A stretch of 59,005 nt of DNA from Comamonas denitrificans (lineage in GTDB: Bacteria > Pseudomonadota > Gammaproteobacteria > Burkholderiales > Burkholderiaceae_C), in assembly GCF_017368815.1 (NCBI RefSeq), contig NZ_JAFNME010000020.1, positions 1 through 59,005 of the forward strand. The letters are read 5' to 3'. A program made the translations under genes and the position numbers. The notes beneath the pieces are model-generated. The model did no database searches. It was given only the letters and a program-made list of their open reading frames with translations, and had not been told where the DNA came from. Shown here one piece after another: positions 8,208 to 44,276 of the stretch. How positions within the stretch are numbered: position 1 is the first letter of the stretch; every line of letters starts with the position of its first letter.

Positions 8208-8236
8208 GGAACAAACCAGCGCTCAGCAGCTTCTGA
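8208..8236 (+). promoter_or_regulatory. Possible sigma-E (RpoE) type promoter for mucD
   Basis: GGAACAA at 8208-8214 and TCTGA at 8232-8236, separated by 17 bases, resemble the sigma-E consensus (GGAACTT ... TCTGA), with two mismatches in the -35. mucD/degP genes are classical sigma-E targets, which supports the reading. Based on a short match only. Confidence 0.35.
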
Positions 8237-8283
8237 ACAAGCCTCTTGCTGATGAAAAAATGCCCAAAGAAAGGATACCCCCC

Positions 8284-9798
8284 ATGCCCCGATTCAAACC
8301 CCTGCACGCCGCCTTGCTGTCCGTTGCTTTTCTGGGTGGAGCCGCTGGCGTAGCAGGTTGGGAACATTTCTCGCCTCCGCTGGCGGCCGCCCAGGCCCAG
8401 GCCCCGGCGGCCAATCCGCTGTTGGTGCAAGGCCTGCCCGATTTCAGCCCCCTGGTCGATGCCGTCGGCCCCTCGGTGGTGAATATCCGCACCATGGAAA
8501 AAGTCACCCGCCAAGGGGTGGAGTTCCAGGGCTTTCCGGGCATGGACCCGGACATGCTCGAATTCTTCCGCCGCTTTGGCCTGCCCGTGCCGAATATGCC
8601 GCCCCAGCAACGCCCCGGCCCCCAGGGCAATGAGGGCGGCGATGACGGTGAGAGCCAGCCCAGCGGCGTCGGCTCGGGCTTTATCCTGAGCAGCGATGGC
8701 TACATCATGACCAACGCCCACGTGGTCGAGGGTGCCAGCGAGGTCATGGTCACCCTGGCCGACAAGCGCGAATTCAAGGCCAAAATCGTCGGGGCCGACA
8801 AACGCACCGACGTGGCCGTGGTCAAAATCGATGCCAAGGGCCTGCCCGCCATCAAAATTGGCGATGTCAATCGCCTGAAAGTGGGTGAATGGGTCATGGC
8901 CATTGGCTCGCCCTTTGGGCTGGAGAACACCGTCACCGCCGGCATCGTCAGCGCCAAGCAGCGCGACACGGGCGATTACCTGCCCTTTATCCAAACCGAC
9001 GTGGCCATCAACCCCGGCAACTCGGGCGGGCCGCTGATCAATATGCGCGGCGAAGTGGTCGGCATCAACAGCCAAATCTATTCGCGCTCGGGCGGCTTTA
9101 TGGGCATCAGCTTTGCCATCCCCATGGATGAAGCCATTCGTGTCAGCGACCAACTGCGCGCCACCGGCAAAGTCTCGCGCGGGCGCATTGGCGTACAAAT
9201 TGGCCCGGTTGATAAAGAGGTGGCCGAATCCATCGGCCTGGGCAGCGCCACCGGGGCCTTGGTGTCGGCGGTCGAACCCGACTCGCCCGCGGCCAAAGCC
9301 GGTTTACAAGCGGGCGATGTGATCGTGCAGTTCAACGGCACCAAGATCGACAAAGTCTCCGACCTGCCGCGCCTGGTGGGCAACACCAAGCCGGGCAGCA
9401 AGGTCAGCCTGACCATTTTCCGCCGGGGCAAGCAGCAGCAGCTGGCCATCACCGTGGCCGATGTTCCGGCCGATGAAAGCCAAGTCGCCCAAGCCCCTGA
9501 GGCCAGCGGTGCCACGGCCAACGCCAAAACTTTGGGCCTGCGCGTCACCGACCTGACGGCAGCGCAGAAAAAAGCCTTGGGCGTGCGCGGCGGGGTGCAA
9601 GTGGCCGAAGCCAGCGGCCCGGCCGCGCGGGCCGGTATGCGCCCCGGCGATGTGGTGCTGGCCATTGCCAACACCGAGGTGGCCAGCGTGAAAGACTTTG
9701 AAGCCGCCTTGGCCAAGGCCGACCAAAGCAAGCCGGTCAACGTCCTGGTGCGCCGCGATGAATGGGCACAGTACCTGCTGATTCGCCCGCAAAAATAA
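8284..9798 (+). CDS. mucD: Periplasmic serine protease MucD/DegQ (HtrA family)
   Basis: 504 residues. HtrA proteases degrade or refold damaged envelope proteins. An N-terminal signal segment ([19 protein letters not shown]) precedes the protease domain with catalytic His146 (TNAHVV), Asp176 (RTDVAVV) and Ser247 (GNSGGPL). Two PDZ domains follow (about residues 285-385 and 405-500). ATG 8284 is chosen over the upstream in-frame ATG 8260 because it follows AAAGAAAGGA and starts directly with a signal peptide. In many Burkholderiales this gene follows rpoE-rseA-rseB and precedes lepA; here the rpoE genes are not upstream and a palindromic element lies at the junction. Confidence 0.95.
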
Positions 9799-35512: not shown

Positions 35513-36049
35513 CCGACCCCGTTCCCCGAGAGCCGTGTCCGCCATCGGCGGCGTGGCCCATGTCCCGCACGCCCTGCGGGACGCCCAGCGCGCAACGCCT
35601 TCTCTTGTCCGTGTGCGCGTCCCGCCCGGCCGTCCCCGGCCGCGGGACCTGAAGGTAGCTTCTCCACGAACCATGTCCGGGGTTTCCCGGCGCGTTCTAC
35701 TGATCTGCATTTTTCCGCTTCTGCGAAGGGTCCCCCGATGGCTTGCCCGCCTGCGAGCCACCCGGAGACCCTTCGTGGTCAGCGGTATTCGATGCCGTGC
35801 CCAACGGCGAAAAACTGGGCTCCTTTTGTGCGCGGATGTGCGCCAGAAGATGCCGGCGCCAACCACGACATGCGCCGGGTGCGATTGCTTGATGAGCAGC
35901 CGGTTCTAGCGACAACCGGGCCTGCAACAGCCCACGGGTGGTTCTGTCATCCCGAGCCGGAGGCCACTGGGCCTTCGGCGCCTTTCTCCTGCCGATCAAC
36001 GTCCCGGCCCGGCCACACAGTCCAAGGCCACACAAACAGGAGACCCGAC
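35513..36049. other. 537-bp gap after topB: hairpin-rich, no gene recognised
   Basis: No convincing gene. Strong stems: GTCCCGCA/TGCGGGAC at about 35562-35582, GTCCCGC/GCGGGAC at about 35623-35651, and CGAAGGGTC/GACCCTTCG (35724-35732 with 35767-35775) enclosing GGCT/AGCC. The part just before dcm has SD ACAGGAGA. The long-frame overlap with dcm has no start support. It may hold leader RNA for dcm; it does not show the ordered helices of the four related leaders described below. Confidence 0.5.
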
Positions 36050-37648
36050 ATGAACCCGCAACCTCGCCCCCCACGCGGTGTGCCCCAAACCGCGCCACTG
36101 CTGTACGGCAGCGTGTGCAGCGGCATTGAGGCCGTGAGCCTCGCCTGGCAACCTCTCGGCCTCGAAGCCGCATGGTTCGCCGAGATCGAGCCGTTCCCGA
36201 GCGCCGTGCTCGCCCACCGTTACCCCCGCGTGCCCAATCTGGGCGACATGACCGCGATCGCCCGCCAGGTGCGTGCCGGCACTGTGCCAGCGCCCGACAT
36301 CCTGGTCGGCGGCACGCCGTGCCAGTCGTTCAGCGTTGCAGGTAGCCGTCGCGGGCTGGATGACCCGCGCGGTGCCCTTTCCCTTGCCTATGTGGAGCTT
36401 GCCAATGCCATCGACCAAACCCGCCAACAAGACAGCCGCCCGGCGGCCACGCTCGTCTGGGAAAACGTCCCAGGCGTACTCAACGACCGCAGCAATGCCT
36501 TCGGGCATTTCCTGGGCGCACTGGCCGGAGAAAGCCGTGCGCTCCAGCCGCCAGGGGAAAAATGGGCGTACGCTGGTTGTGTGTCTGGACCCCGCCGCCG
36601 CATCGCCTGGCGCGTGCTCGATGCTCAATATTTCGGTGTCGCCCAACGCCGCAAGCGTGTGTTTCTTGTGGCAAGTGGTGGAGATGACCTCGATCCCGCA
36701 GAAGTACTTTTTGAGCGCGCAGGCCTGCTCGGGGATTCTTGTGCGGGCAGCGCGCCGTGGCAAGAAGCTGCCTGCACTGCTGAACCTAGTGTTGACCCAG
36801 CAGACGGATATGCAGGACTGAAGCAGCCCTGCGGCAAGGTCACGACGACGTTTGGGTTCAGCAATGGGCGTGGCCCGACCGATCTTGCAGCCAGTTTGAT
36901 GGCTGGCGGCCCGAAGCACGACATCTGCACCGAGACCTACTTGGTGCAATCCGTCGCAGGCAACATCAGCCACACCCTCGACACCGCCAACAACGGCAAG
37001 GGCAGCAGCGAGGACGGCACCGGCAAGGGTGTTCCGATCATCGCCTTCATCGCGCAGGGCAGCGGCGCCGATGCCACGCTCGACCTGACACCGACGTTGC
37101 GCGCTGGCGGCCATTGCAACAGCCATGCGAACGCCGGGGTCGTGCCCGCCATCGCGTTCGCGCAGAACAACCGCGGTGAAGTGCGCTTCGAGTCGGGCCA
37201 TGGCCAGGTCGCTTGCACCGTGCTGTCCAACGGCAAGCCGGGCTACGGCGTACCTATGGTGGCCTGCGTGTCTCTGCACGGCCGCGAGCAGGGTCTTGCC
37301 GCCGAGCTGGGCGGCAGCGTAGCGGGCGCACTGCGCACCAGCGGCGGCGGCGCGGACAAGCCCTATGTCCTGGCTCCCGACTTCGAGGCGCATTTCCGCT
37401 ACGACTGGAACGACCCTGGCCCCGGCGACTGGTCGCATTGGCGGGTGCGGCGGCTGATGCCCGTGGAGTGCGAGCGGCTGCAAGGCATGCCCGACGACTA
37501 CACGCTGATCCCGTACCGCGGCAAGCCCGCTGCAGATGCTCCGCGCTACAAGGCGATCGGCAACTCCATGGCCGTCCCGTGCATGGCGTGGCTGGGCCAG
37601 CGCCTGGTGCAGTACCTGCACAAGACGGGCTCGACCGCTTCGGATTGA
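36050..37648 (+). CDS. Orphan DNA (cytosine-5) methyltransferase of the ICE
   Basis: 532 residues. C5-methyltransferase motifs: LYGSVCSGIEAVSLAW (motif I), GGTPCQSFSVAGSRRG with catalytic Cys91 (motif IV), LVWENVPGV (ENV motif VI), QRRKRVFLVA (motif VIII) and a C-terminal RLMPVECERLQGMPDDYT ... KAIGNSMAVPC (motifs IX-X). Between VIII and IX about 200 residues of variable, Gly/Ala-rich sequence form the target-recognition region, as in phage-type enzymes. No restriction gene is beside it. It could protect ICE DNA in a new host. ATG 36050 follows CAGGAGA. Confidence 0.93.
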   Translation: MNPQPRPPRGVPQTAPLLYGSVCSGIEAVSLAWQPLGLEAAWFAEIEPFPSAVLAHRYPRVPNLGDMTAIARQVRAGTVPAPDILVGGTPCQSFSVAGSRRGLDDPRGALSLAYVELANAIDQTRQQDSRPAATLVWENVPGVLNDRSNAFGHFLGALAGESRALQPPGEKWAYAGCVSGPRRRIAWRVLDAQYFGVAQRRKRVFLVASGGDDLDPAEVLFERAGLLGDSCAGSAPWQEAACTAEPSVDPADGYAGLKQPCGKVTTTFGFSNGRGPTDLAASLMAGGPKHDICTETYLVQSVAGNISHTLDTANNGKGSSEDGTGKGVPIIAFIAQGSGADATLDLTPTLRAGGHCNSHANAGVVPAIAFAQNNRGEVRFESGHGQVACTVLSNGKPGYGVPMVACVSLHGREQGLAAELGGSVAGALRTSGGGADKPYVLAPDFEAHFRYDWNDPGPGDWSHWRVRRLMPVECERLQGMPDDYTLIPYRGKPAADAPRYKAIGNSMAVPCMAWLGQRLVQYLHKTGSTASD

Positions 37649-37690
37649 TCGGCGACGCAGCCTGCGGGCCACTCCATTCTCCCTCTTGCA

Positions 37691-37891
37691 TTGCCGATGG
37701 TTCGGCAACAGCCCGTAGCCAGGGTGTCAAGGCTGCCGCGGGTTTCACCCACGCCACCCGCCAGTTCGCCTCGGCATCTCACCGGCGAACGCTGCCCACT
37801 GGGCATCGATGCCTCATTTCTCCAACCCACGGGATGGCCGCCACGTCCCGTCAGGAGCATGTCGCCACCCGGTCGATCTCAGGACTTCCCC
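37691..37891 (+). ncRNA. Structured 5' leader A (pseudoknot-containing)
   Basis: Helices: H1 TTGCCGA/TCGGCAA (37691-37697, 37702-37708); H2 GTAGCC/GGCTGC (37715-37720, 37731-37736); H3 around 37737-37753 with one C-A mismatch; P hairpin GTTCGCC/GGCGAAC (37764-37770, 37784-37790) whose loop GGCATC (37773-37778) pairs with GATGCC (37808-37813) across a small hairpin GCCC-ACT-GGGC; final stem ACGGGA/TCCCGT (37829-37834, 37846-37851). The SD and ATG of the next gene follow. Member of a set of four. Confidence 0.65.
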
Positions 37892-38449
37892 ATGGACAAC
37901 ATCACCAAGCAAGACCGCATTACGCTGAAGAACCTCAAGGTGGCCGACTTCGCCAGCGAGGAAACACTGTGCTTCAACGCAACCGTCGTGTTCGACGGTA
38001 CTCCCATCGCCGAGGCCCGCAACGACGGCCACGGTGGCTCGACGTTCCTCCACGCGCTCAACGGCAAGGCGGGGCTACTGGCGCAGGCCGAAGCCTTCGC
38101 CAAGGGCCTGCCGCCTGCGCCGCTTGACCTCGGCCACGAGAGTGAAGACCCTCACTACATCGACATGACGCTCGACTTCCTGGTCGATGAGCTGGCCGAC
38201 GCCATGCACGCGGAACGCAAGGTGCGAGCCGCATTCAACCGCGACATCGGCAACAAGGTGCTGTTCATCAAGGAAGGCAAACTGCTGTTTATCAAGGGCA
38301 TCAAGCTCAAGGCCATCGCCGACCGGAAGGCGTACTTCGCTTCGCTGCGCGCCCGGCAGGCCCAGCCCATCGTCATCCTGGCCGAGCTTCCACCCGAGCA
38401 GGCATTCGATTTGTGGAAGCAGTATGTCCTGGGCGACAAGCCCGACTGA
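37892..38449 (+). CDS. Unrecognised ICE protein (185 aa)
   Basis: 185 residues, soluble, no signal peptide. The N-terminus (MDNITKQDRITLKNLKVADFASEETLCFNATVVFDGT) is followed by HGGSTFLHAL and, in the C-terminal half, a Lys/Ile-rich stretch KVLFIKEGKLLFIKGIKLKAI. I know the type only as a conserved hypothetical of PFGI-1-like ICEs. It follows structured leader A and ends in a terminator, so it is a one-gene unit. ATG 37892 has AGGA at 8 bases. Confidence 0.8.
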   Translation: MDNITKQDRITLKNLKVADFASEETLCFNATVVFDGTPIAEARNDGHGGSTFLHALNGKAGLLAQAEAFAKGLPPAPLDLGHESEDPHYIDMTLDFLVDELADAMHAERKVRAAFNRDIGNKVLFIKEGKLLFIKGIKLKAIADRKAYFASLRARQAQPIVILAELPPEQAFDLWKQYVLGDKPD

Positions 38450-38467
38450 CCCAGCGTCACCGCACCC

Positions 38468-38498
38468 TCCTGACAGCCCCGCACTCGATGCGGGGCTT
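38468..38498 (+). terminator. Terminator after the 185-aa gene
   Basis: GCCCCGCA-CTCGA-TGCGGGGC followed by TTCTTTCTTT, about 25 bp after the stop codon. Confidence 0.8.
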
Positions 38499-38589
38499 CT
38501 TTCTTTCGGTCCCCATCAATCGGGTCTGGGCTGGATGCCATTTTCCAACTGACGCAGCGCGGTCCGCGCACGAAGCTGCCCGCATGTTC

Positions 38590-38779
38590 GCTGATTCGTC
38601 AGCACATGCCAGCAGCCAGGGTTTTAGGCTGTCGCGGGTCTCTCCCGCGTTACCCACCAGTCCGCATCGCATCAAGTCTGCGGACGCGCGTCCTCGTGAC
38701 GTCGATGCCTTTTATCAACCGCGTGCGGGAGCCGCCATCCCGTGAGGGACGAGGCCCCGCTTTTCCAAGGAGCCTATCC
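38590..38779 (+). ncRNA. Structured 5' leader B (pseudoknot-containing)
   Basis: H1 GCTGA/TCAGC (38590-38594, 38599-38603), then ACATGCCA; H2 GCAGCC/GGCTGT (38612-38617, 38627-38632); H3 CGCGGG/CCCGCG (38633-38638, 38644-38649) then TTACCC; P hairpin GTCCGC/GCGGAC (38660-38665, 38680-38685) with loop GCATC (38669-38673) pairing to GATGC (38704-38708) across CGTC-CTCGT-GACG; linker TTTTATCAACC; final stem CGGGA/TCCCG (38726-38730, 38738-38742). SD AAGGAG then ATG 38780. Confidence 0.7.
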
Positions 38780-39004
38780 ATGTCCCAGCAAGCCTCTTTC
38801 GGCCAAACCTTCGGGCAATTGGCCTCGACCTACTGCGGCAAGTTCCTGCCGCTCGAAGTCCTGCAAAGCGCCGCCGGCCACTACATCGGCACGCGCGATA
38901 CCGAAGGCCCCGTTTCGCGGGAATCCCGCGAGTACTTCCGCAGCTATGCCGCGGCTCAACGTGCCCTCGAAAGAGGCGGCTGGTCCCAGCTCGCCGTTCC
39001 TTGA
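38780..39004 (+). CDS. Unrecognised small ICE protein (74 aa)
   Basis: 74 residues (MSQQASFGQTFGQLASTYCG...). Contains FLPLEVLQSAAGHYIGTRD and YFRSYAAAQRALERGGW; reads as a small helical soluble protein. ATG 38780 follows AAGGAGCC. It is 22 bp upstream of the next gene and probably co-translated with it. Expression is preceded by structured leader B. No function can be assigned. Confidence 0.75.
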   Translation: MSQQASFGQTFGQLASTYCGKFLPLEVLQSAAGHYIGTRDTEGPVSRESREYFRSYAAAQRALERGGWSQLAVP

Positions 39005-39026
39005 TCCAAACTGGAGGAATCACGTC

Positions 39027-39419
39027 ATGAACCAGCTACTGCCGCGGGAAGTCGTCGATCAGATCATGCGGGAAGAACAGCATTTCGCCGCCGCGCCTCA
39101 AGCCTTTTTCGAGGCATGGAAGCGTGGCGTCGAGATTGCTGGCCCCGAGTGGTTCGGCGACGGCACCCGTGAAGGTCTGAACCAGGCCAAGAGCAAGTGG
39201 GATCTGCGTCCCAACATGCTGCGGCTCAACGACGCCCTCGGCGTCCTGAGCAGCGGCGAACGCATGTTCCTGTCTGCCATGGTCAGCTTCTACAACGCGC
39301 GTGAGGGCGGTGCCATGCTCAAGCGCTGCCACTTCCACGGGCTGTCGGACTTCGACGGTCTCGACCTGCAACGCCGCAAGGTCATCGCCGACCTGCTCGT
39401 GAACTACAACGGTTGGTGA
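39027..39419 (+). CDS. Unrecognised ICE protein (130 aa)
   Basis: 130 residues, soluble. Conserved-looking C-terminal half: LSSGERMFLSAMVSFYNAREGG, HGLSDFDGLDLQRRKVIADLLVNYNGW. Strong SD GGAGG before ATG 39027. Known to me only as a hypothetical protein of this ICE family. Followed by a terminator-like hairpin. Confidence 0.8.
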   Translation: MNQLLPREVVDQIMREEQHFAAAPQAFFEAWKRGVEIAGPEWFGDGTREGLNQAKSKWDLRPNMLRLNDALGVLSSGERMFLSAMVSFYNAREGGAMLKRCHFHGLSDFDGLDLQRRKVIADLLVNYNGW

Positions 39420-39458
39420 GCCGGTCTCCGGCACACCACTGTCTTTCGTTCCCCCCGA

Positions 39459-39498
39459 GAGGGACATGCGCCCAAAAGGCCATGTCCCTCAATTTCTT
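39459..39498 (+). terminator. Long hairpin after the 130-aa gene
   Basis: GAGGGACATG (39459-39468) pairs with CATGTCCCTC (39481-39490), with a further GCC/GGC inside, then AATTTCTTCT. Strong stem, imperfect U tract. Confidence 0.65.
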
Positions 39499-39535
39499 CT
39501 CCATCACCCTGCGGATGCCATCGTCCGCATGGGCT

Positions 39536-39559
39536 GGCTCCGCTTTCTCGAAAGGAGCC
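39536..39559 (+). promoter_or_regulatory. Hairpin burying the SD of the gene at 39563
   Basis: GGCTC (39536-39540) pairs with GAGCC (39555-39559) and CTTT with AAAG inside, so AAAGGAG, the SD of ATG 39563, is fully paired except for a two-base bulge opposite it. Confidence 0.6.
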
Positions 39560-39562
39560 ACC

Positions 39563-40249
39563 ATGGCGAACAACTACTACGAAGGCACGGGCGTTCTCGT
39601 GCTGGAGCGTGTCACCCCCGTCATCAAGGCGCTGTTCGGCGCCTTCGCGCTGAACGAAGGCCATCCCGGCAACGGGCAGGCCTACATCGCCCAGATCGCC
39701 GAGACCAATGATCCGCGCTGGACGGATGTGCTGGACGGCCTGGAAGACCTGGCCGCACAACTCGGCATCCCCATGCCCGACGACGAAGAGTTGTCGATTC
39801 CACCTCTGCTCGAACGGCTGGCCGCGCACTTCGGTGCCGAGCAGGACGCGGAGCTGGAGAACCTGATCGAGCACCACAAGTTCGAGGACAGCGCCGACCT
39901 GGAAGCCTTGCTTCTGATCGCTTCCTGCTTCGATGACGGCCATCGCCTGACCGCCATCCAGTTCGAAGGCTGCTGGCATTGCAGCAGGCCGAGGCTGTTC
40001 GAGTTCGGCGGCAACGGCTGCTACCTGAGCCGCGAGGTCCAGGTCTTCAGAACGTCCTCGCAGGCGCTCCAACTCGGCGACCAACTGCGCAAGACGATCC
40101 TGTCCGCCGACATCGAAGAGGCCTCGGCATTGATCGCGCTGGAGGCCGCCAACCTGCTCGCAGGCATCAACGACGAGCAGTTCCGCCTGAATGTGCGCCG
40201 TCGCGTCGCCGACCGACTGGCCCAGATGCCAACGATCAGCGCCGCCTGA
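39563..40249 (+). CDS. Unrecognised ICE protein (228 aa)
   Basis: 228 residues, acidic and Leu-rich, no signal peptide. Features: VLVLERVTPVIKALFGAFALNEGHPGNGQAYIAQIAE near the start, an acidic middle (MPDDEELSIPPLLERLAAHFGAEQDAELENLIEHHKFEDSADLEALL) and a Gly/aromatic segment FEFGGNGCYLSREV. Conserved hypothetical of this ICE family. Its SD is sequestered in a hairpin. Function unknown. Confidence 0.8.
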   Translation: MANNYYEGTGVLVLERVTPVIKALFGAFALNEGHPGNGQAYIAQIAETNDPRWTDVLDGLEDLAAQLGIPMPDDEELSIPPLLERLAAHFGAEQDAELENLIEHHKFEDSADLEALLLIASCFDDGHRLTAIQFEGCWHCSRPRLFEFGGNGCYLSREVQVFRTSSQALQLGDQLRKTILSADIEEASALIALEAANLLAGINDEQFRLNVRRRVADRLAQMPTISAA

Positions 40250-40277
40250 CGCATTTTCCATTTTCAACCCACCGGGT

Positions 40278-40301
40278 CCAATTCCCGGTGGCGGGAATTG
40301 G
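40278..40301 (+). terminator. Perfect 10-bp hairpin between 39563 and 40330 genes
   Basis: CCAATTCCCG-GTGG-CGGGAATTGG; no U tract. May block transcription or be an RNA-stability or protein-binding element just upstream of the next SD. Confidence 0.5.
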
Positions 40302-40329
40302 CTCCATTATTCAATCTGGAGAGTTCCCA

Positions 40330-41067
40330 ATGTCCCAGAAACCCAATCCCTTTCACCGTGGCTACTGGAATCTGAAAATCGTCCGCACGCTGTGCATCAG
40401 CTACGAGGACGGAAGCCCGCATGTCTGGCGCAACATCCACGCGAGCCAGCAACACCTCTCCGACGAGGAACTGGTTTCATCGTCCTGCATCGTCGCCAAC
40501 GATTTCGCCGTGGTCAGCGATGGCCGCGAAGCCGTGAACGCCGAGGTACTGGCCGAATGCGATGCCGGTGAAGGCGTCAGCGGCGAAGGTGTGATCGGTG
40601 CCGTGGTCTATGCCATCCATGGCGAGGACTTCGACGGCCGCCCAGTCCACGTCGGTGACGCCTATTCGGCCGAGGCCGCGCGGGAAGCGATGCAGCGCCT
40701 GAGTTTCGAGACCGGCTACTACAGCCGGTGCTGGGAAATCAGCCGTGAGCACATCACGGTCGATAGCTGGCACTACCTCGCCGGCCTGGCGGACATCGCC
40801 ACGCCGGAGGCCATGTTGTTCATCGCCTTCCGTGTGCCGTACAGCCCGGCGATCGGCGTCAAGCTGATTTCCACGCCCTGGACGGACCAGAACCTGGAGC
40901 ACGCCGAGGGCATCACCGCCGAGCAGCTTCGACAGGAGCACCGGAACAAGGGCATGCCGGACGACCTGGCGAACATCCTTGAACTGGCTGGCCAGGCCGA
41001 TGTGCGCATCCTCATCCTCGATGCAGACGCACCCGCGTTGCTGGGCCTGCCGCTGGCCGAGGGCTAG
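40330..41067 (+). CDS. Unrecognised ICE protein (245 aa)
   Basis: 245 residues. Begins FHRGYWNLKIVRTLCISYEDG and contains HGEDFDGRPVHVGDAYSAEAAREAMQRL, WHYLAGLADIATPEAMLFIAFRVPYSPAIGVKLISTPWTDQNL. The pattern resembles the uncharacterised DUF5983-type ICE proteins, but I am not certain of the family number. Soluble; no catalytic motif seen. SD CTGGAGA before ATG 40330. Confidence 0.78.
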   Translation: MSQKPNPFHRGYWNLKIVRTLCISYEDGSPHVWRNIHASQQHLSDEELVSSSCIVANDFAVVSDGREAVNAEVLAECDAGEGVSGEGVIGAVVYAIHGEDFDGRPVHVGDAYSAEAAREAMQRLSFETGYYSRCWEISREHITVDSWHYLAGLADIATPEAMLFIAFRVPYSPAIGVKLISTPWTDQNLEHAEGITAEQLRQEHRNKGMPDDLANILELAGQADVRILILDADAPALLGLPLAEG

Positions 41068-41108
41068 CAGCCGCGCGACACGCGGGTCTTCCTCTTTGTC
41101 CCCTCATG

Positions 41109-41146
41109 CCAGCCCGTCTCCCCCAAGAGTCGGGCTGGTCCATTTT
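41109..41146 (+). terminator. Hairpin after the 245-aa gene
   Basis: CCAGCCCG (41109-41116) pairs with CGGGCTGG (41131-41138), 14-base loop, then TCCATTTT. Lies immediately before the next gene's SD. Confidence 0.55.
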
Positions 41147-41161
41147 CATAGGAGCAACCTC

Positions 41162-41440
41162 ATGTTCCCCAACCTCATTTCGCGCGCACCGGACTTCGAG
41201 CACCAGCTCGGAGCCTGCGTCAACGCCATGAGCCAGGACGACGCCATCGGCCAGATCCTGGTATTCGAGCGCACGCACGGCACGCTGCACATGCGCCATA
41301 TCGCCGGCGCCGACTTGGTGGACACCGACATTGACGACTACGAGATGGTCGTCTTCGACGGTGGCAACACCGGCGGCGACACGTGGAAGCATGTGTTCTT
41401 CCCGCGTCAGCGCGAACACTACTTCGTGTACCAAGCCTGA
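41162..41440 (+). CDS. Unrecognised small ICE protein (92 aa)
   Basis: 92 residues, MFPNLISRAPDFEHQLGACV..., with LHMRHIAGADLVDTDIDDYEMVVFDGGNTGGDTWKHVFFPRQ. Acidic, soluble. ATG 41162 follows AGGAGCAACCTC. Ends in a UUCG-capped terminator, so it is separated from the next gene. Function unknown. Confidence 0.75.
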   Translation: MFPNLISRAPDFEHQLGACVNAMSQDDAIGQILVFERTHGTLHMRHIAGADLVDTDIDDYEMVVFDGGNTGGDTWKHVFFPRQREHYFVYQA

Positions 41441-41448
41441 TCCAACCA

Positions 41449-41470
41449 GCCCCTTTCGAGGGGCCTTTTT
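41449..41470 (+). terminator. UUCG-capped terminator after the 92-aa gene
   Basis: GCCCCT-TTCG-AGGGGC (41449-41464) followed by CTTTTT. Confidence 0.85.
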
Positions 41471-41560
41471 CTTGTCCCCAGCGCGGGAAACCGGGTGCGG
41501 CGCAGTGCCGTTTCATGCGGGCGGGTAGCCCGGCCCAGGGCCATCCTTGCCCCCATGTTC

Positions 41561-41724
41561 GTCGGCGTTGCCGACACATGCCCAGGCAGCCGAGACCTTC
41601 GAGGCTGCAAGCACGGGAAACCGCGCTGGTTGTTTCTTCCTACGGACGCACCGCGTCCATCCACCCACAAGGGACCTCTCCCTTGCGGGCGGGGAATCCC
41701 TTGTTCTTCCTCAAGGAGATTCCC
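41561..41724 (+). ncRNA. Structured 5' leader C with SD-burying final hairpin
   Basis: H1 GTCGGC-GTT-GCCGAC (41561-41575), then ACATGCCC; H2 GCAGCC/GGCTGC (41586-41591, 41603-41608); H3 AGC-A-CGG-GAAA-CCG-C-GCT (41610-41627) with an A-C mismatch; GGACGC/GCGTCC (41644-41649, 41653-41658) where the other leaders have the pseudoknot; AAGGGA/TCCCTT (41669-41674, 41679-41684). Last, GGGAATC-CCTTG (41692-41703) pairs with CAAGG-A-GATTCCC (41712-41724), hiding the SD of ATG 41725. Confidence 0.7.
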
Positions 41725-42528
41725 ATGGACCGTTCCCTCATCAAATCCATGATGCCTTCGCTTGTCGCAGGCCATGTGCCCCGCAACGTGCGGTCGTTCA
41801 AGTATCGCGTGTTCGATGATCAGCCGCAGTCCTCGACGCTGGGCTTCGCCATCGACCCCCAGCCCTTCGACGGCAAGGTGGTCGCGGCCAGCGACGACGC
41901 CATCGTCGTCAAGCTCAAGCCCAGCGAGTTCGCGGTGCTCGACCCCCACCTGGTGACCACCCTTCCCAGCGAAGGCGCCAAGGTGCATGTCCAACCGTAT
42001 GCCCGCCGCCGCTTCGACGGCCTGCGCGCGGACACCCCGGAAGTAATCACCGAGAAGACCGCGGACGGTGTTCCCTACACCATCACCAGGCACATCCTCG
42101 GCTCCGCGCCTGCCAAGCTGCCCATCCCCGAGCCGCAGTGCATGGAACTGGGACAGCTCATCCAGCAGTTGGAGGAAATGCCGGCTCCCGATGGGTTCCG
42201 GCGCATCACCCACATGCTGGTCGATGCGGGTGCCCGCGACTTCACCTGGGTCGATCCGAAGCCGTCCAAGATCATCGAGACACCCCCGGCGATCAGCTTC
42301 TCGGTTTCGACCTCGAAGTTCGAGGGCCAGGTGACGATCCTCTACGACCGCGGCGGCGACACCTACGCGGTGGAACTGAGCCGCGACGGCGAACTGGTCG
42401 ATCGGCACGACGAGGTGTATTTCGACATGCTCGGTGAAGTGCTGGAGCGGCTTATCGACGACGGGCACTGGCGTCTGATCGACGTGAGCGTCATCGACGC
42501 CAAGGCAACCAAGCGGCGCTACGGCTGA
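41725..42528 (+). CDS. Unrecognised ICE protein (267 aa)
   Basis: 267 residues. N-terminal part FKYRVFDDQPQSSTLGFAIDPQPFDGKVVAASDDAIVVKLKPSEFAVLDPHLV looks beta-rich; the C-terminal part (FEGQVTILYDRGGDTYAVELSRDGELVDRHDEVYFDMLGEVLERLIDDG) reads as a separate domain. Relatives are sometimes labelled GTPase, but no P-loop is present here. Expression is preceded by leader C and its SD is within a 12-bp stem. Function unknown. Confidence 0.8.
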   Translation: MDRSLIKSMMPSLVAGHVPRNVRSFKYRVFDDQPQSSTLGFAIDPQPFDGKVVAASDDAIVVKLKPSEFAVLDPHLVTTLPSEGAKVHVQPYARRRFDGLRADTPEVITEKTADGVPYTITRHILGSAPAKLPIPEPQCMELGQLIQQLEEMPAPDGFRRITHMLVDAGARDFTWVDPKPSKIIETPPAISFSVSTSKFEGQVTILYDRGGDTYAVELSRDGELVDRHDEVYFDMLGEVLERLIDDGHWRLIDVSVIDAKATKRRYG

Positions 42529-42557
42529 CCGCAGCCTACCGGCGACTTGCCCCCATA

Positions 42558-42592
42558 GGCCTTCCATCCATTCGGGTGGAGGGCCTTTTTCT
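42558..42592 (+). terminator. Terminator between 41725 and 42607 genes
   Basis: Stem of about 12 bp (42558-42569 with 42574-42585, two G-T pairs) followed by TTTTTCTT; the SD of the next gene (CAGGAGA) starts right after the T run. Confidence 0.85.
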
Positions 42593-42606
42593 TCAGGAGA
42601 TCAACC

Positions 42607-42960
42607 ATGTCACTGCGATTCAAAGGTTCCGACCTGCGCCCCGTGCTGGCCGAGGCCGTTGCCAACCAATGCCGCGTCGTCCTCGCCAAGGACCAGGGCG
42701 TGTACTTCCTCGCCGAGCAGGGAGAGCGCCGTCCCGATGGCCGCGTGAAGCTGCTGGCCTATGCCGTCGGCTGCAACCCGGATACCGACCCGTTTGACGG
42801 CTGGTGGGAACTGGCGCGTGCCGAGCTGGGTGGCGACGACTTCGGCGAGTTCTTCGATCCGAAGGAAGGCGTCTTCGCCCGCATCCTGCGCGGCATGGAC
42901 GATCTGATGCTATCCGCCACCACGACGCACCTGTCGCTGGAGGTGGTGCCATCGATGTAG
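42607..42960 (+). CDS. DUF3085 family protein
   Basis: 117 residues. DUF3085 signature: LRFKGSDLRPVLAEAVANQCRVVLAKDQGVYFLAEQGER, AYAVGCNPDTDPFDGWWELARAELGGDDFGEFF. Small soluble protein found in ICEs and plasmids; role unknown. ATG 42607 follows CAGGAGATCAACC, directly after the terminator of the preceding gene, so it depends on read-through or its own promoter. Confidence 0.85.
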   Translation: MSLRFKGSDLRPVLAEAVANQCRVVLAKDQGVYFLAEQGERRPDGRVKLLAYAVGCNPDTDPFDGWWELARAELGGDDFGEFFDPKEGVFARILRGMDDLMLSATTTHLSLEVVPSM

Positions 42961-42984
42961 TGCGAATACCACTGTCCCCTCACG

Positions 42985-43010
42985 GCCCCCTTCATGGGGG
43001 CTTCTTTTTT
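42985..43010 (+). terminator. Terminator after the DUF3085 gene
   Basis: GCCCCC-TTCAT-GGGGGC (42985-43001) followed by TTCTTTTTTT. Confidence 0.85.
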
Positions 43011-43102
43011 TGCGGCGCTGGCGGCATGGACAAAGGGAAGCGTCCGGATGCCGATTGATTACTGCCGCGCGCGCGAAGCCCGTCCATGCTGCCCCCATGC
43101 CT
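43011..43102. other. Start of the 361-bp gap before the DUF3577 gene
   Basis: After the DUF3085 terminator, 43011-43102 shows no recognisable promoter or gene; leader D fills the rest of the gap up to 43321. Confidence 0.4.
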
Positions 43103-43321
43103 GCTGACGTTGTCAGCGACATGCCAGGCAACCATCGGTCTTCGAGGTTGCCGCGCAGTTTCCACTGCGTGACCGAGCCAGCTCGCACCGCATCCATCCG
43201 CGAGCGGCCACCAGTCCTGGTGGCGGATGCTTTCGCCTTATCAACCCACCGCGGGGTTACGCACCTTTCCCCGCATGCGTGGGGCCGGTGTGTCTCCGCT
43301 TCATCCCAATGGAGATTCACC
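43103..43321 (+). ncRNA. Structured 5' leader D (best-formed copy, pseudoknot plus SD-burying stem)
   Basis: H1 GCTGAC-GTT-GTCAGC (43103-43117), then ACATGCC; H2 GGCAACC/GGTTGCC (43127-43133, 43146-43152); H3 CGCAG/CTGCG (43154-43158, 43165-43169); P hairpin GCTCGC/GCGAGC (43181-43186, 43200-43205) with loop GCATCC (43190-43195) pairing to GGATGC (43225-43230) across CCACCA-GTCC-TGGTGG; linker TTATCAACC; stem GCGGGG/CCCCGC (43251-43256, 43269-43274). Finally 43287-43297 pairs with 43311-43321 (one mismatch), covering the SD GGAG up to the ATG. Confidence 0.75.
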
Positions 43322-44239
43322 ATGAGCACCACGTCCAACGAGAAATCGTATTTCGACCTCCACACCTCGGGCATCGGCTACATCCAGCGTGTCCGCGAGG
43401 TTCCCGTCCGGGGCGGCCGCCGTGCGCAGCCCTTCCTGGCATGCACCATCGCCGCGCTGGTCGGCTCCGCCAAGGACCCCAGCTACCGCTACTTCGACGT
43501 CAAGGTCTCGGGTGCCGAGGCCAAGAAACTGGTCGAGCGCTACATCGGCGTTGACGATCCCAAGCAGCGGCCGCTGGTGCGCTTCCGCCTCGGCGACCTC
43601 TGGGGCGATGCGTACATCCGCGACAAGGGTGAGCACAAGGGCCAGGCCGCCGCGTCTCTGAAGGCGCGACTGCTGAAGGCCGAGCCGCTTGACCGGGCCG
43701 AACTGGCTTCGATCAAGCTGCACGAGCTGATCACCCGCGGCATCGGCTACCTCAGCCGCCCGAAGGACGTCTCCCCCAAGGATGGCGATCCGTTCCTGTC
43801 GTGCTGCGTCGCGGCGCTGGCCGGACCTGTCGGTGAACCGGAATATCGGTACTTCGACACCATCGTCGCCACCCCTGAAGCCGAGCACCTGGTTCGCCGG
43901 TGCGTGCAGGCCATCGAAGGGGACCGCAAGGTGCTGATCGCCTTCCGTCTGAACGACATGAAGATCGATCCGTACATCCGCACCAAGGGCGAGCGCGCCG
44001 GGGAACCGGGAGCGAGCCTGGAATCGACGCTGGTCCACATCGGTCTCATCAAGATCGACGGCACCCAGGTCTATCCGACGAGCCAGGCGCAAGCCGAGGC
44101 GCCGCAAGCCGAGGACGCACCCGCGCCCGAAGCCGAGGTTGCCGCCGACACCGCTGCCGACCAGCCTGTCGAGCCCGCCGTGCGCGAGCCCGCAGGTGAA
44201 GTCGAGGAGCAGGAGCCGGCATTGGCTGCTTCGTTCTGA
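43322..44239 (+). CDS. STY4534-family (DUF3577) ICE protein with two tandem domains
   Basis: 305 residues. Two copies of the same domain: residues ~17-120 (GIGYIQRVREV, PFLACTIAALVGSAKDPSYRYFDVKVSGAEAKKLV, GDAYIRDKGEHKG) and ~140-240 (GIGYLSRPKDV, PFLSCCVAALAGPVGEPEYRYFDTIVATPEAEHLV, IDPYIRTKGERAG). DUF3577/STY4534 proteins are annotated as ICE replication proteins, reminiscent of SSB-like OB folds (inference). A ~60-residue Ala/Glu/Pro tail follows. Preceded by leader D, in which its SD is paired. Confidence 0.82.
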   Translation: MSTTSNEKSYFDLHTSGIGYIQRVREVPVRGGRRAQPFLACTIAALVGSAKDPSYRYFDVKVSGAEAKKLVERYIGVDDPKQRPLVRFRLGDLWGDAYIRDKGEHKGQAAASLKARLLKAEPLDRAELASIKLHELITRGIGYLSRPKDVSPKDGDPFLSCCVAALAGPVGEPEYRYFDTIVATPEAEHLVRRCVQAIEGDRKVLIAFRLNDMKIDPYIRTKGERAGEPGASLESTLVHIGLIKIDGTQVYPTSQAQAEAPQAEDAPAPEAEVAADTAADQPVEPAVREPAGEVEEQEPALAASF

Positions 44240-44247
44240 TCCGGCAT

Positions 44248-44276
44248 GGCCCCTCACGGGGCCTTGCCTTTTTCCT
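44248..44276 (+). terminator. Terminator after the DUF3577 gene
   Basis: GGCCCC-TCAC-GGGGCC (44248-44263), then TTGCCTTTTTCC. Confidence 0.75.

Follow-up and report, generated by a model that had tools for sequence, protein, structure and literature searches.

A putative translational switch linked to the radC RNA domain upstream of mobile-element genes in Comamonas denitrificans

Introduction

The 59,005-nucleotide stretch of Comamonas denitrificans DNA analysed here (contig NZ_JAFNME010000020.1, hereafter the window) carries four related structured leaders, A to D, each upstream of a distinct gene in what looks like an integrative and conjugative element (ICE). The recurrence of one structured RNA before several genes of a mobile element raises the question of what it does there. 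We report that the four leaders belong to the radC RNA family of Rfam (RF01754), and that the tails between this motif and the start codon hold strands that could alternately hide and free the Shine-Dalgarno sequence (SD). On this basis we put forward, with about even confidence, a riboswitch-like translational switch of ICE genes that is linked to the radC domain. The motif has been listed since 2010, when the table of Weinberg et al. (PMC2864571) classed it as certainly an RNA, probably cis-regulatory and ambiguous as a switch, and no work on its function was found in the literature that we searched.

Results

The four leaders are radC RNAs

All four leaders match RF01754 on the + strand, each over model positions 1-149 (cmscan), with scores of 62.5 (A), 76.3 (B), 98.9 (C) and 122.8 bits (D), well above the curated gathering score of the family (40 bits). 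An initial annotation, made from the letters alone, had described four leaders with one order of elements and had suggested the radC motif as their identity; both proposals are borne out, and the motif begins 15-17 nt upstream of the leader coordinates given there. The radC domain of leader A (37676-37812) precedes a gene at 37892-38449, that of leader B (38573-38708) a gene of 74 amino acids at 38780-39004, and that of leader C (41544-41690), which represents a C subtype, a gene at 41725-42528; none of these three genes has a Pfam match. The domain of leader D (43086-43230) precedes the gene of a DUF3577/STY4534 family ICE replication protein (43322-44239, +; Pfam PF12101, NCBIfam NF040584). 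A fifth copy in the genome, on contig C5, lies before a gene with a RadC JAB domain (PF04002). The leader domains, helices and tails described below are all on the + strand.

Most radC tails could pair in two exclusive ways around the Shine-Dalgarno sequence

The tails hold four strands: a pairs with b or with c, and c is an anti-SD strand that covers d, the SD itself. In the predicted OFF fold, a and b would be paired and c would cover the SD; in the predicted ON fold, a, as a mimic of the SD, would capture c and leave the SD free. The GGGA/TCCC stem of the initial annotation has in a:c a second pairing option that was absent from that account, and the a/b/c/d element as such is new here. In leader D the tail occupies 43251-43316, with a at 43251-43256 (GCGGGG), b at 43269-43274 (CCCCGC), c at 43292-43299 (GTCTCCGC) and d at 43311-43316 (GGAGAT), while the alternative helix joins 43251-43265 to 43287-43299. 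The minimum free energy (MFE) structure of the full leader D contains a:c, the centroid contains a:b and c:d, and the z score is -4.04; when the tail is folded by itself with 15 coding nt, the OFF fold (a:b and c:d) reaches -37.6 kcal/mol and is better by 3.5 than a:c at -34.1. By these calculations the two folds are close in energy.

We assessed each tail with dinucleotide shuffles that repeat the whole choice of strands, and a tail passes at a joint p≤0.05. The capacity to form the two exclusive helices is clear in leaders C and D, weak in B and missing in A. Leader D gives a joint p of 0/300 shuffles with an SD opening energy of 5.9 kcal/mol. Leader C (tail 41668-41723; a 41668-41674, CAAGGGA; b 41679-41685, TCCCTTG; c 41693-41703, GGAATCCCTTG; d 41712-41723, CAAGGAGATTCC) also gives 0/300, with 9.0 kcal/mol, and its tail MFE structure consists of a:b and the SD hairpin. 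In leader B (tail 38725-38774; a 38725-38733, GCGGGAGCC; b 38738-38742, TCCCG; c 38753-38760, GGCCCCGC; d 38769-38774, GGAGCC) the opening energy is 3.7 kcal/mol, a:c pairs GCGGGAGCC with GGCCCCGC, and c:d contains a C-A mismatch. Leader A has an a:b hairpin at 37829-37851 (ACGGGA/TCCCGT) without a convincing anti-SD helix, and its SD opens at 2.0 kcal/mol.

The same arrangement recurs well outside the window. Among diverse radC tails 40 of 45 (89%) pass the shuffle test, compared with 16 of 81 genes called mechanically in this genome (20%), and the SD opening energy at 37 C averages 7.0 kcal/mol in 75 radC tails against 3.2 in the 81 control genes. In Pseudomonas, 34 of 36 tails pass. The c:d helix shows compensatory changes across types (GTCTCCG/TGGAGAT, CGTGCTCC/GGAGCACG, GGTCTCCG/TGGAGACC and TGTTTCTCC/GGAGAAACA; five leaders in this comparison had no SD found). 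Individual copies illustrate the range of the sequences involved: L184 has a TGACGGAGAC, c GGTGTCTCCGTCA and d GGAGACACC, and the a:c helix of L154 is ATGGGGAATCACT/AGTGCTTCCCCAT.

The strongest support comes from permuting the partners of a and c among tails. In the ICE set (75 tails), own partners score 16.82 against 14.35 +- 0.32 for permuted ones, and in the new Pseudomonas copies (40 tails) 15.64 against 13.87 +- 0.42; none of 2000 permutations reached the own value in either set. The Pseudomonas figure comes from 88 hits with a start codon found for 65, and the 40 tails used retain five whose starts look wrong (L161, L176, L157, L175 and L185). This comparison is not circular, because a was picked for its pairing with b and c for its pairing with d; permutations of c:d and a:b are biased by construction, since those strands were picked to pair, and only a:c and loop:c count. 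Extending the test with the S1 loop again gives 0/2000 in the ICE (67 of 75 tails, the eight A-type tails being left out) and Pseudomonas (37 of 40) sets; the identity cut-off and 45-tail shuffle tests keep the A types. With identity taken as alignment score over length, as also in the shuffle tests, 36 tails below 68% identity give a z score of 8.2 for a:c (0/5000), and 0/5000 holds at every cut-off down to 32 tails below 62%. The S1 loop, which is unpaired in the OFF fold, also fits c (z 4.2, 0/5000).

Several results weigh against a switch. Within the window, leader A lacks the platform (joint p 0.537) and leader B shows it weakly (p 0.033); the eight A-type tails have a median p of 0.385. 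The five failures among the 45 diverse tails include three before radC genes (E_L010, E_L011 and L130), one of which is the radC-gene copy of this very genome (p 0.16), and L144 fails too. When the tail was aligned with MAFFT and its column pairs were put to a tree-aware test, no OFF or ON pair was significant; the register of this alignment was poor, and 3 of 11 ON pairs were mis-specified. The permutations limit the effect of common ancestry by identity cut-offs alone. The shuffle test is anti-conservative, with 20% of control genes passing at 0.05, so that single p values are soft and the contrast between 89% and 20% is the result to be retained. Lastly, ICE genes without a radC domain have SD hairpins as well (39563, p 0.0; 41162, p 0.043; 40330, p 0.06).

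This last observation, together with the failure of leader A and of some radC-gene leaders despite their radC domain, would be expected if the tail were an ordinary SD hairpin, a tuner or thermometer common in this ICE, that is unlinked to a radC domain with a separate role such as protein binding. Genes 39563 and 41162 pass the very same test. We consider this explanation unlikely, because a:c complementarity recurs before unrelated genes in the radC leaders of Pseudomonas. At 39500-39563 and 41130-41162, where there is no radC domain, ICE genes likewise have hairpins over the SD for which an a:c pairing is a possible alternative, and the tail platform may be an ICE-wide device.

Covariation supports a double-pseudoknot fold of the radC domain

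The predicted fold of the 5' domain comprises five helices and two pseudoknots, given here for leader D with the proportion of base pairs that covary at E≤0.05. P1 pairs CATG (43096-43099) with 43120-43123 and GCTGAC (43103-43108) with GTCAGC (43112-43117) (4/10 pairs). P2 (43127-43152, GGCAACC/GGTTGCC; 2/6) carries in its loop the 5' strand of the pseudoknot PK1, CGGTC (43136-43140), which pairs with GACCG (43171-43175) (1/5). P3 (43154-43169, CGCAG/CTGCG; 5/5) is followed by P4, in which GCTCGC (43181-43186) pairs with GCGAGC (43200-43205) (3/6; 96.8% of cells pair). The second pseudoknot, PK2, joins GCATCC (43190-43195) to GGATGC (43225-43230) (1/6) and spans P5 (43208-43223; 6/7). These E values come from a two-set test over 45 proposed pairs with 97 sequences (of 125 rows, retained at <95% identity and ≥125 nt). 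The null is tree-aware, redistributing substitutions over columns in 100 replicates, and was computed with our own script, which is modelled on R-scape and is not R-scape itself.

Of all 10,153 column pairs, the 13 best fall within P1-P5, and 11 of them reach E≤0.05; the same test with 53 sequences gave one significant pair. Across 116 distinct rows, paired cells make up 93.3% of the total and cells changed on both sides number 903, compared with 75.6% and 279 in 500 shuffles, and sliding the partners leaves 23.5-49% paired. Changes on both sides occur in 41 of the 45 proposed pairs. The compensatory changes reported by the initial annotation are therefore beyond chance, and the covariation persists in these larger alignments. 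The conservation might in principle reflect a shared short coding sequence, an explanation that we judged unlikely, since the leaders of each of the types A, B, C and D have lengths that fall into more than one class modulo 3; pointing the other way, the frame of the gene is open through the leader in 41/43 C-type and 16/17 A-type leaders (D 20/52, B 17/41).

The pseudoknots were also evaluated by permutation on 53 representatives of 150 aligned matches (153 were found, two weak matches being excluded and short ones omitted). Own partners score 11.99 against 8.94 +- 0.37 for PK1 and, with C types included, 13.57 against 12.07 +- 0.32 for PK2, with 0/2000 permutations in both cases. PK1, between the P2 loop (H2 in the initial annotation) and the strand after P3 (H3), is present in all four window leaders and was absent from that annotation. 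PK2 corresponds to the loop pseudoknot described earlier; as stated then, leaders A, B and D retain it. It is missing in C and in other C-type leaders, which keep PK1; in leader C a local GGACGC/GCGTCC hairpin has, by eye, replaced PK2. Leader A has the letters of PK1 (GGGTG/CACCC) and PK2 (GCATC/GATGC) that L031 and L088, its close relatives, also carry.

P1-P3 and the P5 hairpin agree with the structure line of Rfam, from which P4, PK1 and PK2 are absent. The sequence comparisons support these three as parts of the radC fold, and we rejected the Rfam line as a complete description in their favour. The 3-bp helix that Rfam places around P5 pairs in 77/116, 112/116 and 94/112 rows, and it lies in a part where the C-type leaders are different. 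The pseudoknots may already have been recognised for the family: a passage of the CaCoFold study (PMC7657543) names radC as one of the families for which additional pairs are supported, without saying which pairs these are.

radC leaders recur before the same genes in ICEclc-like loci

The protein of gene D, used as a query, found 168 relatives in one contig scan, and the best 80 loci were kept. Run on these best 80 of 168 loci, on the window and on three further loci, a covariance model built from nine leaders gave 262 matches. A type D leader precedes the DUF3577 gene in 80/80 of these ICEclc-like loci (this gene being the query that found them), and types C, B and A, assigned by downstream gene, occur in 72, 65 and 33, counts that include loci on short contigs and B assignments that were partly made by position, the gene call there being wrong. 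By DNA position, the genes immediately downstream of RF01754 are mobile-element genes in all 80 DUF3577 loci. The initial view of a cis-acting RNA family of several ICE genes thus fits, types A-D standing before distinct genes across loci; that the RNA controls the four genes at once went beyond this evidence, and joint control may be proposed as part of the model discussed below.

Under strict filters, and with the present genome counted in each tally, RF01754 was found in 2/274 genomes of the class, 6/398 of the phylum and 10/300 of the order (8 of these 10 over the cut-off). In one genus, which is very likely Pseudomonas, at least 165 of 298 genomes are positive under the same filters. None of 14 control genomes was, and a distant blastn search found no relatives of leader D in E. 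coli. The radC copy before gene C in the distant genome G262 has a C-type 3' part in common with window leader C, and the leader types therefore look older than these ICE lineages.

Other copies occur in varied surroundings. Two Xanthomonas loci have a degenerate tandem copy directly upstream of the B-type copy (L052:1690-1839, 25.5 bits; L047:1694-1843, 23.0 bits), which looks like a decaying A-type leader. Genome G615 has three radC leaders (L093, L102 and L103) inside ~2.1 kb, before small unrelated genes and each with a TTGACA-type promoter.

The window also holds genes for ParA-like, AcaB, topoisomerase, TraG/TraD-type and DUF4400 proteins, which make the setting look like an ICE, and a DNA cytosine methylase gene (35738-37648) lies directly upstream of leader A. 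A Proteobacterial small RNA, sX8 (RF02227; 24365-24446, - strand, 91.6 bits), is found just upstream of the ICE part. A search for transfer RNAs in the window found none.

The motif begins at a predicted promoter

In aligned upstream regions, a promoter-like -10 box (CATGCT, 43085-43090, +) directly precedes leader D. Most A-D copies have a -10-like ATxCT at Rfam positions 1-5 (AAGCT in window leader B), and several Pseudomonas copies have TTGACA ~17 nt upstream of this box. Given the position of the -10 box at the start of the motif, the RNA would begin at P1 or a few nt from it, and we predict its 5' end at the base of P1. For leader D this would place the 5' end ~225 nt before the gene; Gaillard et al. 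(PMC2892462) found a weak primer-extension end ~250 nt before ORF81655 of ICEclc. The copy before a radC gene at L010:8975-9123 has no such -10 box and overlaps the 3' end of an upstream open reading frame (ORF, 8236-9021), which is annotated as a thioredoxin domain-containing protein in two plasmid relatives, and may double as coding sequence.

With a -10 box so close that P1 begins near the 5' end, the radC domain might instead be a 5'-terminal stabiliser or processing site of the mRNA, with tail hairpins that tune basal translation. Such a role may coexist with a switch. Taken as the explanation of the leaders, it appears improbable to us: the radC-gene copy, lacking a promoter-like start and overlapping an ORF, would not be at a 5' end, and protection alone needs neither PK1 and PK2 nor the a/b/c/d complementarity.

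Single-stranded-DNA hairpins such as Frpo can act as promoters of incoming DNA. The mobile-element setting would suit a similar role of the radC element as DNA, and STAXI motifs have been discussed in this way. We give this idea very little credence. TTGACA promoters of the duplex type precede several copies, the tail is built around the SD, and G-U mispairs outnumber A-C mispairs by 52:8 in P1-P3 and 51:8 in P5, if not in P4 (20:30, with C types misaligned).

Published ICEclc data show co-induction of the putatively matched transcripts

By order and by gene lengths of 0.9, 0.8 and 0.23 kb, genes D, C and B resemble ORF81655, ORF84835 and ORF88400 of ICEclc, the lengths being back-calculated from the transcript table of PMC2892462. 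We take the three as probable equivalents; that gene lengths and order are the sole basis of this match counts against the argument built on it. Placing the ICEclc ORF numbers on L030 by stop positions had fitted at most 3 of 7 numbers and was replaced by lengths and order. According to the same study, the matched transcripts are highly induced solely after growth on 3-chlorobenzoate or fructose. P81655 and P88400 are described as late promoters with bimodal activity, which depend on InrR and respond to BisDC (PMC9286271). In that work a fragment of ORF84835 had no promoter activity although RNA coverage rose there. The published ICEclc data considered here document co-induction of the three transcripts and no effect of a leader, and PMC13098234 and the promoter passages of PMC13393423 contain no terms tying ICEclc ORFs to the leaders.

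From a mismatch between RNA coverage and the green fluorescent protein (GFP) signal, the authors of PMC9286271 inferred post-transcriptional control of the ORF81655 unit. Their single-cell reporters carried their own ribosome-binding site, and for this reason an effect of the leader on mRNA stability would account for the mismatch no worse than a hidden SD would, a further point to the disadvantage of the switch. As it does not favour translation control, we lowered our confidence in the translational switch from slightly above even to even, and raised that in the stabiliser slightly, from one low level to another.

The published signal drops steeply inside units: at 24 h, ORF81655 gave 168 and ORF75419 11.1, and ORF84835 gave 9.5 and ORF83350 0.9 (PMC2892462). 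By eye, terminator-like hairpins with T runs follow genes C (42556-42590) and D (44250-44275) in the window, and a number of loci have them too, with changes in the stem. These hairpins could explain the drop from 5' to 3'. They also lie between genes 42528/42607 and 44239/44297, where a processive antitermination RNA like put or EAR might carry polymerase past terminators between ICE genes, and leaders do stand at the starts of long transcripts (a calculated 14.3 kb from ORF81655). The fall from 168 to 11.1 within one unit is hard to reconcile with such processivity, which would also leave the tail switch unexplained, and we rate antitermination as very unlikely.

Discussion

A radC-linked translational switch is the reading that we favour, held no more firmly than at even confidence. 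The radC leader would be a two-domain cis-regulator. Its 5' domain, made of P1-P5 and two pseudoknots near the predicted transcription start, is the likely sensor or binding site, and its 3' tail would be a translational expression platform with the two exclusive folds described above. The folds would interconvert under the control of the 5' domain, their balance shifted by a common signal of the transfer-active cell, which might be a metabolite or else a protein or RNA of the ICE. Several ICE genes, transcribed from activator-dependent promoters, would then be translated together in the cells in which the ON fold prevails. A bolder and more tentative version, which we consider doubtful, treats radC RNAs as a class of orphan riboswitches carried by mobile elements. 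Their double-pseudoknot sensor would detect a single shared signal, arising in the transfer-active cell or in the recipient, and the a/b/c/d tail would turn on the translation of ICE genes together, those for replication and RadC among them.

A switch-like element would make the function of this orphan RNA testable with reporters. If real, it would give ICEclc-type elements a further level of control, one to which the published fusions, with their own ribosome-binding site, are blind. In a genus with so many RF01754-positive genomes, the mechanism could touch much of horizontal transfer.

With the radC family as defined in Rfam, the four leaders share the full length of the model above the gathering threshold; that model ends before the tail platform, and its structure line is without P4, PK1 and PK2. 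The transfer-competence regulon of ICEclc (PMC2892462, PMC9286271) is probably the closest described counterpart of the genes, through the match of B, C and D by order and length, with the difference that the fragment of ORF84835 was without promoter activity.

HK022 put and EAR are processive antitermination RNAs. They resemble the radC leaders as structured RNAs at the start of long transcripts, and the polarity seen in ICEclc argues against a common mode of action. In translational riboswitches, anti-SD and anti-anti-SD helices form downstream of a structured 5' domain. The radC leaders differ from them in having no known ligand and in preceding genes that are not metabolic, and leader A is without a platform; what they have in common is the layout itself, a structured 5' domain succeeded by strands that pair as anti-SD and anti-anti-SD.

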